From: Bacteroides fragilis
Lineage (GTDB): Bacteria > Bacteroidota > Bacteroidia > Bacteroidales > DTGW01
DNA length: 64,000 nucleotides
Direction of reading: 5' to 3'
Assembly: GCA_945889005.1 (NCBI GenBank)
Contig: CAMDBI010000001.1
Location: forward strand, 1 to 64,000
Positions 57,924 through 62,845 of the stretch are shown one piece after another. Within the stretch, counting starts at the first letter, position 1. Each line of letters starts with the position of its first letter. Position numbers and translations under genes: made by a program. The notes beneath the pieces were generated by a model, which searched no databases, was not told the origin of the DNA, and was given only the letters and a program-made list of their open reading frames with translations.

Positions 57924-59744
57924 TTACAATTTTTTTAAATTTTTATTAATCTTAAAATAATCAAATACTATTAATGCCTTTGATTCGCCTATTACATTAG
58001 ATAACGATTTATAACTTGCTATTTTAATGTTATCTATAGTATTGAAATGAACAAATAATGTTTTAATGGTCTTTTCTCCTATTCCTTTTATTTCCGACAA
58101 TTCGGATTTAATAAAATTATTTGATCTTTTTTGCCTATGAAAAGTAATTCCAAAACGGTGAGCTTCGTTACGAATATGTTGAATTATTCGGAGGGTTTCA
58201 GATTTTTTGTCGATATAGAGGGGAATAGGATCATTTGGAAAAAAAATTTCTTCGAGACGTTTAGCAATTCCAATAATTGTTAACTTATTTGCTATTCCAA
58301 GCTCTTCGAGTATTTTAACAGCTGCCGAAAGTTGACCCTTTCCTCCGTCGACAATAATTAATTGAGGAAGCTCCTCTCCTTCTTCTTTAAGTCTTTTATA
58401 ACGTCGATAAATAACTTCCTCCATCGAAGCAAAATCGTTCGGTCCTTCTACAGTTTTAATATTAAAGTGTCTATAATCGTTTTTAAAAGGTTTCGCATTT
58501 CGAAACACAACACAAGCGGCTACAGGATTTGTGCCTTGAATATTAGAATTGTCGAAACACTCAATATGAAACGGTTGAACAGACATACGTAAATCGATGC
58601 GCATTCTTTCCAAAGTAATAAATGCAGGGTTTTCTGAATTTTTTTCGGAAAGTTTTTTATTTCTATCGAGAATAAAATATTTGAGATTTCGTTCCGATAG
58701 CTCGAGCAATTTAAATTTATCGCCCAACTTTGGAATTGAATATTTAACACCCTTTAATTTAATGTCTGGATAAAAAGGCACAATGACTTCGTTAGAATTG
58801 CTAAATAACCTAGCACGCACATCTGATATTACAGTTGAAAAAATTTCGTCATTTTCTTCATCTAGTTGAGCATGAACCTCGACAGTATGAGATTGAACTA
58901 TTGATCCATTAACAATACGCAAATAATTAATAAAAACAATATTATTATCTTTCAAAAAACTAAAAACATCGACATTATTAATATCCGAATTTACGATAGT
59001 CGATTTACTTTGGTACTTCTCGAGTAAAACTATTTTTTCCTTAATTAAAGCAGCTTCTTCAAACTTAAGGTCGTTGGCATTTTTGTTCATTAAATCAATT
59101 AAAAAAGCTTTTAAACCCGACAAATTACCTTTAATAATACTTTTAATAAGATCAATATTAGTGTTATATTCACTTAAAGTAATACGTCCTTCGCAAGGAG
59201 CTTTACAATTTCCTATATGATACTCAAGACAAACCTTATATTTATTTGAATGTATATTATATTCTGTTAGATCATAATTACAAGTTCGAAGAGGAAATAA
59301 TTTGCGAATAAATTCCAAAAGAGTTTTAACCATAAGACCAGAAGTAAAAGGTCCAAAATAAAAAGATCCATCTTGAATCACATTTCGAGTAGAAAATACA
59401 CGAGGATAAAGTTCATTTTTTATACATATCCATGGAAAAGTCTTATCGTCTTTGAGTAAAATATTGTATCGGGGTTGGTATTTTTTAATTAAGTTGTTTT
59501 CAAGTAAAAGGGCATCGCTCTCGGAATCGACTACCAAAAATTTAATATCAACAATTTTAGACACTAAAATCCTTAATTTGCCGTTATCAAAATGTTCTTT
59601 ATTAAAGTAAGAAGAAACACGTTTTTTGAGATTTTTAGCTTTTCCAATATATATGATAGTACCTTCTTTGTCGAAATATTGGTAAATACCCGGCTTATCG
59701 GGAAGGTTGGATATAGTTGTTTTTATGTAATTTGATGTTGACAT
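57924..59744 (-). CDS. uvrC: Excinuclease ABC subunit C
   Basis: MSTSNYIKTTISNLPDKPGIYQYFDKEGTIIYIGKAKNLKKRVSSYF; IECFDNSNIQGTNPVAACVVF; C-terminal HhH. Confidence 0.97.
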   Translation of the reverse strand: MSTSNYIKTTISNLPDKPGIYQYFDKEGTIIYIGKAKNLKKRVSSYFNKEHFDNGKLRILVSKIVDIKFLVVDSESDALLLENNLIKKYQPRYNILLKDDKTFPWICIKNELYPRVFSTRNVIQDGSFYFGPFTSGLMVKTLLEFIRKLFPLRTCNYDLTEYNIHSNKYKVCLEYHIGNCKAPCEGRITLSEYNTNIDLIKSIIKGNLSGLKAFLIDLMNKNANDLKFEEAALIKEKIVLLEKYQSKSTIVNSDINNVDVFSFLKDNNIVFINYLRIVNGSIVQSHTVEVHAQLDEENDEIFSTVISDVRARLFSNSNEVIVPFYPDIKLKGVKYSIPKLGDKFKLLELSERNLKYFILDRNKKLSEKNSENPAFITLERMRIDLRMSVQPFHIECFDNSNIQGTNPVAACVVFRNAKPFKNDYRHFNIKTVEGPNDFASMEEVIYRRYKRLKEEGEELPQLIIVDGGKGQLSAAVKILEELGIANKLTIIGIAKRLEEIFFPNDPIPLYIDKKSETLRIIQHIRNEAHRFGITFHRQKRSNNFIKSELSEIKGIGEKTIKTLFVHFNTIDNIKIASYKSLSNVIGESKALIVFDYFKINKNLKKL

Positions 59745-59849
59745 ATAGAAAAAAATAAAACAAATATACATACTATTGACAACTACCTTAGCCTTTGAAT
59801 TCCATCTGTACACATTGGCTCCACAAGGTATGCGAAAGTGAATTCTTTG

Positions 59850-59889
59850 GTCACCAAGTGCCCTTCGGCTACGCTCAGGGAGAGTGAAA
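59850..59889. repeat. Partial palindromic repeat unit (GGTCACC..GCCCTTCGGCTACGCTCAGGGAGAG)
   Basis: Matches the short unit of the 60494-60897 array. Confidence 0.8.
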
Positions 59890-59900
59890 TATATACTCTA

Positions 59901-60070
59901 GGACATGTCTAAAAACTGCTTTTTAGCTACGTTGAGCCCTTCGGAGTTCTTTGTTGGACTTCATTTTTAAACTCCTCACTTCGACTTTAGCTCAGTGTAA
60001 CTCATTTACAGTAGTAAACTCCGGGTTTATAAAATCGTCCGCCTCAAAAAATTGAGTTTTTAGAGAAGCC
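59901..60070 (+). mobile_element. Copy 3 of three-copy ~170-bp TIR element
   Basis: GGACATGTCTAAAAACTG...TTGAGTTTTTAGAGAAGCC; possible 5-bp flanking duplication CTCTA (59896-59900, 60071-60075). Confidence 0.82.
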
Positions 60071-60072
60071 CT

Positions 60073-60402
60073 CTAAGGTAACCGAGCGGAGTCGAGGTAA
60101 ATATTTCTTTTTGAATTTGTATTATTTTCACATTGAGAAAATTCCTTAAGTTTATCGATACTTCCATTAATTAATGCTTGTTTTTTTTTATGGCTCCAAC
60201 CTTGAATTTGTTTTTCTCTTAGAAAAGCTTCATCAATTCTAAAAAATTCTTCTGAATAAACAAGCTTAACAGGCAAATTCTTTCTAGTAAAATTAGCGCC
60301 CTCTCCCATCATATGTTGTTGAAGTCGCAAATCGAGATTATTTGTACTACCTGTATAATAAGTTCCATTGGCACATTCGAGAATATAAATAAATGCTTTC
60401 AT
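60073..60402 (-). CDS. Small GIY-YIG nuclease superfamily protein (UPF0213/YhbQ-like) with repeat-derived C-terminus
   Basis: 109 aa; FIYILECANGTYYTGSTNNLDLRLQQHMMGEGANFTRKNLPVKLVYSEEF...EKQIQGWSHKKKQALI; last codons (LDSARLP*) lie in the GAGCGGAGTCGAG repeat. Confidence 0.92.
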   Translation of the reverse strand: MKAFIYILECANGTYYTGSTNNLDLRLQQHMMGEGANFTRKNLPVKLVYSEEFFRIDEAFLREKQIQGWSHKKKQALINGSIDKLKEFSQCENNTNSKRNIYLDSARLP

Positions 60403-60493
60403 ATAAATCTACAAATTACAAAACTAAAGTAAAAATTATTATTTAAAATTCTCACTTAGACAACACTCTGAAAACAGTTAAATCGAGTGTTTG

Positions 60494-60897
60494 GGTCACC
60501 GAGCGGAGTCGAGGTGATTTACTACAAAACCCTTCGACTGCGCTCAGGGTACGGATGATTCGAGCGTTACGGTCACCGAGCGCCCTTCGACTACGTTCAG
60601 GGTACAGACGATAAAGTGTCCGGTCACCGAGCGGAGTCGAGGTGATTTACTACAAAACCCTTCGGCTGCGCTCATGGAACGGATGATTAAATGTTCGGTC
60701 ACCGAGCGCCCTTCGGCTACGCTCAGGGAGCGGATGATTAAGTGTCCGGTCACCGAGCGCCCTTCGACTACGCTCAGGGTACAGACGATAAAGTGTCCGG
60801 TCACCGAGCGGAGTCGAGGTGACTTACTACAAAACCCTTCGACTGCGCTCAGGGAACAGATGACTCGAGCGTTTGGGACAGCGAGCGGATTCGAGGT
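60494..60897. repeat. Array of palindromic repeat units (A-B-A-B-B-A)
   Basis: GGTCACCGAGCG recurs at 60494, 60571, 60622, 60697, 60748 and 60799; ~76-bp A units and 51-bp B units; arms GAGCGGAGTCGAGG / CCCTTCGACTGCGCTC complementary. Confidence 0.92.
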
Positions 60898-60919
60898 GCC
60901 AGTTAAAGCATTACTTAAA

Positions 60920-60935
60920 TGTTCCACGTGGAACA
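60920..60935. promoter_or_regulatory. parS: parS-like ParB-binding site
   Basis: TGTTCCACGTGGAACA, perfect 16-bp palindrome fitting TGTTNCACGTGNAACA. Confidence 0.88.
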
Positions 60936-60957
60936 TAGTAAAAATAGCCATTTGGAG

Positions 60958-60973
60958 TGTTCCACGTGGAACA
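60958..60973. promoter_or_regulatory. parS: Second parS-like site, abutting the mnmG stop
   Basis: TGTTCCACGTGGAACA, identical to the first copy, 38 bp start to start. Confidence 0.88.
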
Positions 60974-62845
60974 TTATCGACCTAAATGAATGAGTAGAAC
61001 GTTTATATCTGATGGGGATACGCCGGGAATGCGAGATGCTTGTCCAATAGTTGTAGGTTTAATTTTTTTAAACTTTATTCTAGCTTCGGTTGAAAGTGAT
61101 TGTAAAGAACTAAAATCGAAACTATCGCTTATTTTAATTTCTTCTAATCTCAATAGTTTGTCGGCAATTAATTGCTCTTTATGTATGTATCCGCTGTATT
61201 TAATGTTAATTTCGATTGAATCTAAAACTTCACTTTGTAAGTCGCCATAACTTTTTAGAGGTGCTTGTAGTGACTTAAATTGATCGACCAACATTTGAAT
61301 ATTAATTTGTGGCCTCGATAATATATCGATTAGTTTTGATTTAGATTTTACGGTAGTTGTATTGGCACGTTCTAAAATAGGATTAATTCGTTCGGGTGTT
61401 GTGAATTTATTATTTAAAATAGTAAAATACTCATGAATAAACTTTTTCTTCGATAAAAACAATTCATATCGCTCTTTTTGAACCAATCCTATTTGATAAG
61501 CTTTTTCGGTTAATCGTTCGTCGGCATTGTCTTGTCTAAGTAAAATTCTATATTCAGCTCTAGAAGTAAACATACGGTATGGTTCATCTACTCCTTTAGT
61601 GACCAAATCGTCTATTAAAACTCCAATATAAGCTTCGTTTCTTTTTAAAATAAACTCATTTTTGCTATTAATTAACAAATGAGCATTAATACCAGCGATT
61701 AGACCTTGAGCTGCTGCTTCTTCGTATCCTGTTGTTCCGTTAATTTGTCCTGCAAAAAAAAGGTTTTGTACTAATTTAGTTTCTAAAGTATGTTTTAATT
61801 GCGTAGGTGGATAATAATCGTATTCGATAGCATAACCTGGACGAAATATCTTGACATATTCCAAACCTTTAATAGCTCGTAAAGCCTTGTATTGTATATC
61901 CCAAGGTAAAGAACTAGAAAAACCATTGATATAATATTCGTTTGTATTTTCGCCTTCTGGTTCTAGGAACAATTGATGGCTATCTTTAGAACTAAATGTT
62001 ACAATCTTATCTTCAATACTTGGACAATATCGTGGACCTACTCCTTTAATTATTCCTGCATAAAGTGGAGAGTCTTTAAAACCCCTTTCTAATATAGAAT
62101 GAACTGCAGAACTTGTATAAACAAAATGACAAGGTTTTTGGACAGTACTTACTCCGTGATTAAAAAGAAAAGAAAATTTTCCAGTTTCATCGGCACTTTG
62201 AGATTCGAGCAAAGAAAAATCGATAGATCGACCATCGAGACGAGCTGGAGTACCCGTTTTCATTCGACCTACTTCAAAACCATATATTTTTAATTGATCT
62301 GAAATACCAATTGAAGCAGGTTCTGAAATTCTGCCTCCTACAATAGTATTTCGTCCTATGTGCATTAATCCATTGTCGAAAGTTCCAGTTGTAAGTATAA
62401 CTGATTTGGCATAAAATGTAACACCTATTTGAGTAGTAACACCTTTTACAACATTGTCTTCTAAAACAAGTGAAACAACATTGTCTTGCCAAAAATCTAA
62501 ATTTTTAATTGATTCGAGTATATTACGCCACTCTATAGAAAATTTAACTCTATCGCATTGTGCTCTTGGACTCCACATTGCAGGACCTTTTGACAAATTG
62601 AGCATACGAAATTGAATCATCGAACGATCGGTAACTATACCGGTATATCCACCCATAGCATCAATTTCGCGAACAATCTGACCCTTTGCTATACCACCAA
62701 TAGCAGGATTGCATGACATTTGGCCAAATTTTGTCATATCCATTGTAATTAACAATGTATTTGATCCAAGATTTGCAGCAGCTGAAGCAGCTTCGCAACC
62801 TGCATGACCTCCACCTACAACAATTACATCATAATATTGAATCAT
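60974..62845 (-). CDS. mnmG: tRNA uridine-5-carboxymethylaminomethyl(34) synthesis enzyme MnmG
   Basis: 623 aa; YDVIVVGGGHAGCEAASAAANLG...SCNPAIGGIAKGQIVREIDAMGG...GLIAGINAHL. Confidence 0.98.
   Translation of the reverse strand: MIQYYDVIVVGGGHAGCEAASAAANLGSNTLLITMDMTKFGQMSCNPAIGGIAKGQIVREIDAMGGYTGIVTDRSMIQFRMLNLSKGPAMWSPRAQCDRVKFSIEWRNILESIKNLDFWQDNVVSLVLEDNVVKGVTTQIGVTFYAKSVILTTGTFDNGLMHIGRNTIVGGRISEPASIGISDQLKIYGFEVGRMKTGTPARLDGRSIDFSLLESQSADETGKFSFLFNHGVSTVQKPCHFVYTSSAVHSILERGFKDSPLYAGIIKGVGPRYCPSIEDKIVTFSSKDSHQLFLEPEGENTNEYYINGFSSSLPWDIQYKALRAIKGLEYVKIFRPGYAIEYDYYPPTQLKHTLETKLVQNLFFAGQINGTTGYEEAAAQGLIAGINAHLLINSKNEFILKRNEAYIGVLIDDLVTKGVDEPYRMFTSRAEYRILLRQDNADERLTEKAYQIGLVQKERYELFLSKKKFIHEYFTILNNKFTTPERINPILERANTTTVKSKSKLIDILSRPQINIQMLVDQFKSLQAPLKSYGDLQSEVLDSIEINIKYSGYIHKEQLIADKLLRLEEIKISDSFDFSSLQSLSTEARIKFKKIKPTTIGQASRIPGVSPSDINVLLIHLGR

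Follow-up and report, generated by a model that had tools for sequence, protein, structure and literature searches.

The window, by which we mean the whole stretch of 64,000 nucleotides that was analysed, carries a small GIY-YIG nuclease gene between uvrC (57924-59813, minus strand) and mnmG (60974-62845, minus strand). As claimed in the preliminary description, the gene lies amid palindromic repeats; its open reading frame is intact and there are hairpins on both sides. The features of the locus are:

59849..59882, minus strand: outlying type A hairpin with arms CCC/GGG, between the nuclease gene and uvrC
59899..60072, no strand assigned: MITE-like element of about 174 bp with terminal inverted repeats GGGCnTCTCTAAAAAC, abutting the nuclease stop codon and dispersed in the genome
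60073..60402, minus strand: GIY-YIG nuclease gene, 109 aa, catalytic residues conserved, with a C-x-N tail (SQCENN) followed by the repeat-encoded LDSARLP
60077..60098, plus strand: hairpin unit with a type A loop, overlapping the 3′ end of the nuclease gene
60494..60897, no strand assigned: upstream hairpin array A-B-A-B-B-A, with three 77-nt blocks (inverted hairpin pairs) and three 51-nt blocks (one hairpin each)
60876-60897: degenerate unit of the upstream array
60920-60936 and 60958-60974, no strand assigned: two parS-like palindromes TGTTCCACGTGGAACA, beside mnmG and beyond the array

The protein matches PF01541 (Pfam, E 2.2e-17), which is the only domain found, the Y1/HUH domain (PF01797) being absent. 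In the alignment with its relatives, Y-I-L, Y16/G18/S19/T20, R26 and E63 are invariant, so the active site looks intact, and the protein has both the domain and the catalytic Tyr, Arg and Glu of the GIY-YIG superfamily. Its predicted structure resembles 1zg2, 1ywl and Slx1. The model for group I intron GIY-YIG homing endonucleases (TIGR01453) scores 22.7 bits, below its cut-off of 56.05, and an Rfam search of 59700-61100 returned zero family matches, so that neither an intron context nor a known RNA family is supported. None of the PADLOC anti-phage defence models matches the nuclease.

The block order and the bounds of the upstream array were as previously described, and the two other units already noted, one encoding LDSARLP at the 3′ end of the gene and a partial one at 59850, are present at 60077-60098 and 59849-59882. 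The block starts of the array are spaced by 77/51/75/51/51/77; block A (about 77 nt) consists of two hairpins in inverted orientation, and block B (51 nt) resembles A minus about 26 nt. The '+' units GGTCACCGAGCGGAGTCGAGGTGA and the '-' units CCCTGAGCGCAGTCGAAGGG are one hairpin with differing arms, in which C-G replaces the T-A pair at the core base. In the source genome there are 37 exact copies of GAGCGNAGTCGARG, compared to one of the reversed pattern, and 63 copies of TGAGCGNAGYCGAA against 0; of the 63 core copies, only 4 are exact tagged copies.

Two neighbouring features were overlooked in the earlier account. The MITE-like element, which sits between the 3′ hairpin and the unit at 59849, is separate from the hairpin system. 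It belongs to a family of about 130-180 bp (L238, L242, L243, L245) with 68 end matches in the source genome against 3 for the control, and some of its copies (L242) enclose a nuclease hairpin pair. The parS-like pair is an ancestral feature of the mnmG flank that lies outside the nuclease element, and TGTTTCACGTGAAACA-type sites are found at the same place in order-level relatives; the conservation of these sites suggests a partition locus near the origin.

The spacer between mnmG and uvrC is about 1.2 kb in the window. In order-level relatives it is about 190 bp (L199) or about 60 bp (L200) and contains neither the nuclease nor the hairpins, while a different gene lies between mnmG and uvrC in L189 and L194. 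Since the relatives keep the pair without nuclease or repeats, the gene and its array were inserted between mnmG and uvrC.

Hairpin architecture and linkage to the nuclease

All units share one frame, consisting of a YGGT tag, an arm, TGAG, a loop, YCGAA and the complementary arm. Apart from type A, the loops are of type B (GAGCnYGYCGA), C (GAGGnnCYCGA), D (GAGT(A)-stem-loop-TAYCGA) or E (GAGCGnnAGYCGA). The sequence of the type A arms is free, but their pairing is kept, with a mean of 5.2 bp compared to 2.55 bp after dealing the right arms to other units, and the same outcome was obtained for types B and C. The G at -7, which lies outside the paired arm, is 97% conserved and the T at -5 is 84% conserved, which indicates a 5′ tag, YGGT, that is confined to one side. 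The core opens with either a T-A or a C-G pair. By comparing the loop types, we infer that the inner pairing would comprise tandem G.A, G-C, a bulged Y and then C-G (types A and B) or G-C (type C), a pairing (tandem G.A, bulged Y) that the folding program does not score. In a nearest-neighbour DNA model, the window's own units fold weakly (z -0.9 and -1.5) and a well-formed hairpin of a relative folds well (z -3.6). The nearest units point inwards from both sides of the gene (upstream, + in 50:12; downstream, - in 57:14).

Scanning 84,980 species genomes yielded 80 relatives of the nuclease with 56-71% identity, which are mostly from Bacteroidota and also include Spirochaetota, a cyanobacterium (Nodosilinea), Calditrichota, Fibrobacterota-like and proteobacterial records. 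A type A core is found at most 100 bp from the gene in 60 of these 80 loci, whereas 2000 random placements within the same loci gave 5.0 loci on average and never more than 14, and most of the remaining loci have hairpins with other loops (B-E). As control genes, we used 30 other GIY-YIG hits from eight genomes: 26 of them lack a unit within 600 bp, and these include each of the seven full-length UvrC-like ORFs; the four hits with units are other small GIY-YIG genes. A comparison of repeat number with nuclease presence, as proposed in the preliminary description, gave median core counts of 8, 5, 0 and 0 for genomes with a strong, middle, weak or no nuclease match (197 genomes of the class; strong and middle versus none, p 3e-9). 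Tagged copies are present in 10 of 21 strong-nuclease genomes and in 11 of the 176 others (p 3.5e-6); in most genomes they are few and mostly located at the nuclease gene. Several of the strong genomes that lack tagged A copies encode nucleases with B- or C-type tails, as expected from the tail-loop rule (see below). The partnership between nuclease and repeats that had been claimed is thus strongly supported by the enrichment, the clean control GIY-YIG genes, the genome-level association and the match between tail and loop.

Many repeats in the absence of the nuclease had been named as an observation that would speak against this partnership, and three nuclease-less genomes (G038, G045 and G017) do have many core copies. 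The outcome is mixed: the first two carry another tag, TTGTCAT, and zero YGGT-tagged copies, but G017 is a real orphan, with 72 tagged copies and a GIY-YIG complement consisting of UvrC only. This is either an orphan repeat population or a case where the nuclease locus is missing from the 230-contig assembly. The 14-mer core alone was rejected as a marker, because it mixes the GTCAT-tagged family (G038/G045) with the YGGT-tagged one, and counts of untagged copies mislead.

G038 (L210-L237) and G045 hold a second repeat family with a GTCAT tag that shares the TGAGCGnAGYCGAA core; in G038, there are about 195 copies of it, most of which form inverted pairs spaced by about 44 bp, and no GIY-YIG or Y1 partner for it was found. 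Elsewhere, tandem or near-identical small GIY-YIG genes lie within about 1 kb (G326:C18:37979-39162, G175:C1:1140644-1141338 and G057:C4:180189-181132), hinting at local duplication of gene and repeats.

The identity between nucleases from different phyla (about 60-70%) exceeds that of UvrC within the order (47-61%), which suggests that the nuclease has spread horizontally, although identity can be inflated in a short conserved domain and misbinning of some MAG contigs is possible. Carriage by phages or plasmids was discarded as a route, as plasmids and phages hold only distant relatives (<60% identity) and viral contigs only one (42%).

The C-terminal tail and the hairpin loop

The end of the nuclease varies together with the loop of its hairpins: C-x-N is paired with GnA, AYRD with nnC, LS[KR] with nYG and AKKx[WF] with a long loop. 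With tail classes that were partly defined by inspection (B and D after the fact, D being recognised only after the first pass), the tail agrees with the loop type in 100 of 103 loci, compared to at most 65 in 20,000 shuffles that ignore kinship among the loci. By class, agreement is 71/71 for C-x-N with loops A/E, 11/11 for AYRD/AYKD with loop C, 8/8 for AKKx[WF] with loop D and 10/12 for LS[KR]/xSK with loop B, and there is additionally one frameshifted tail among the 103 loci. When the rules fixed from the first 80 loci were applied to newly fetched loci, this first-pass prediction was correct for A in 9/9, for C in 4/4 and for B in 3/6, the three misses being an AYKD tail, a frameshift and a locus with mixed B and C units.

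On a tree of the catalytic domain without the tail, the loop types are scattered, with 18-22 changes, this tree having 78 columns only and being poorly resolved; there are 19 tail-loop contrasts on the best tree, of which one remains on strongly supported branches. The switches are therefore likely, though not proven, to be independent. We give even chances to a modular recognition code, in which a conserved catalytic domain would carry a tail of about ten residues that can be exchanged and that reads the DNA hairpin loop, the repeat type of the genome following the tail. Such a code, if true, would account for how the widespread TGAG...TCGAA bacterial repeats arose, and what may be new in this work is the rule relating tail to loop and the single frame uniting the hairpins.

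The residues that track the loop precede the repeat-encoded part of the nuclease. It had been supposed that tails like LDSARLP occur on other GIY-YIG proteins; this is true of 28 of the 80 ORFs, where the core lies inside the reading frame and the endings are FDSAQ-, ERSR- or LRSA-like, but most relatives stop before the repeat. As most family members end earlier, the repeat-encoded tail is probably a by-product, and we take LDSARLP as read-through rather than a functional module. In the window, the stop codon sits at the junction with the MITE (59899-60072).

In eight loci (L027, L029, L065, L069, L072, L073, L074 and L012), the nuclease ORF continues in frame into a downstream ORF, mostly through a hairpin; by inspection, these downstream ORFs are GHMP kinase-like (Flavobacteriaceae) or HsdS subunit-like (L012). 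The nucleases of L004 and L005 adjoin hsdS-like genes.

A probable site-specific nuclease with cognate hairpins, and competing explanations

Ssn, the subject of a 2025 Nature Communications study on Neisseria NTS repeats, is reportedly a GIY-YIG family that cuts single-stranded DNA site-specifically and has many homologues with cognate sequences. It is reported to be likewise a small GIY-YIG protein with a cognate repeat around its gene and in the genome, and to have widely distributed homologues with differing specificities. A cognate repeat around the gene is also what we found at the nuclease loci, and the window nuclease is probably a single-strand nuclease of this kind, with Ssn as its most likely family. 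The TGAG-loop-YCGAA frame, the tail-loop correspondence and the pattern of insertion and horizontal spread were derived here.

The analogy to REP elements and their RAYTs made in the preliminary description stands in part. As in REP/REPIN and RAYT (TnpA-REP) systems, tagged inverted palindromes flank the nuclease gene, with YGGT as the conserved 5′ tag where REPs have GTAG/CGTC, the hairpins have an internal mismatch or bulge and occur as inverted pairs, and orphan repeat populations exist. However, the enzyme is GIY-YIG instead of Y1/HUH, and the tagged copies are, unlike typical REPs, usually few and mostly at the gene, the nuclease being a candidate agent of their dispersal. The small GIY-YIG proteins of the UPF0213/YhbQ type, which have the same fold, are the closest solved structures (1zg2, 1ywl); we know of no specific tail or cognate repeats described for them. 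In our literature search, the hairpin core sequence occurred in no relevant paper and no link between GIY-YIG and REP was found.

The linkage, the shared frame, the arm complementarity, the tail-loop match and the insertion are observed; the cleavage, the single-stranded substrate, the fine pairing in the loop and the biological role are inferred. We consider it probable that the gene encodes a small site-specific nuclease with the surrounding repeats as its cognate sites, gained together and spread horizontally, whose tail reads the loop. Each site would be a single-stranded DNA hairpin with YGGT as its 5′ tag, a self-complementary arm whose sequence varies freely, and a core of T-A, tandem G.A mismatches (GA...GA), G-C and a bulged Y that ends in a closing pair and a small loop. 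A catalytic domain common to all relatives would be directed by the short C-terminal tail that reads this loop, and gene and sites would have been gained jointly between mnmG and uvrC, which are ancestral neighbours, before spreading as a unit. The nuclease would most likely nick or cut the hairpin when it is single-stranded, during replication, repair or DNA uptake, which may seed the copying of sites, shape DNA uptake or both. This would link a specific enzyme to palindromic repeats of a class that is very common in bacteria and so far unexplained, provide a second, unrelated type of enzyme in a RAYT/REP-like arrangement, and predict that a short protein tail and the loop of a hairpin are related by a rule that can be read.

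The target could instead be double-stranded, with an endonuclease of the homing or restriction type and palindromic sites that spread by break repair and gene conversion. Homing and restriction enzymes are among those with the GIY-YIG fold, and the inverted arrangement of the sites and the growth of a tandem array suit copying by break repair. However, the arms vary freely yet stay complementary, and the core is the asymmetric interior of a hairpin rather than a dyad, which is more in keeping with a folded single strand than with a duplex site; we regard a duplex target as unlikely. Still less probable is a role in RNA, where the nuclease or another factor would bind hairpins in the messenger of the nuclease gene and thereby act in regulation or termination: the hairpins are close to the ORF on both flanks and extend into it in 28 of 80 cases, but units are found on both strands, in inverted pairs and elsewhere in the genomes, with zero Rfam family matches in 59700-61100. 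That common GC-rich palindromes simply gather in the intergenic space beside any small gene, by coincidence or at an insertion hotspot, would fit the abundance of the 14-mer core in some nuclease-less genomes; it is contradicted by the random placements, by the control genes of the same genomes and by the tagged form tracking the nuclease, and is hardly credible.

We also give little credence, if somewhat more than to coincidence, to an ordinary transposase system (RAYT or MITE) that owns the repeats and has the nuclease as a passenger. The source genome has a Y1 transposase gene as well as the MITE touching the nuclease gene, and hairpin units lie inside some MITE copies. However, a RAYT was rejected as mobiliser, since the Y1 transposase of this genome (G000:C25) is surrounded by palindromes of another kind and there is no convincing unit near any of the seven Y1 hits of G045, and a transposase would leave the tail-loop match unexplained. 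This RAYT-like Y1 gene (L247, G000:C25:514-858) is embedded in an array of GGGACGGAGTCCC, GGCACTACGTGCC and AGCAACATGGTTGC, palindromes distinct from the nuclease hairpins.
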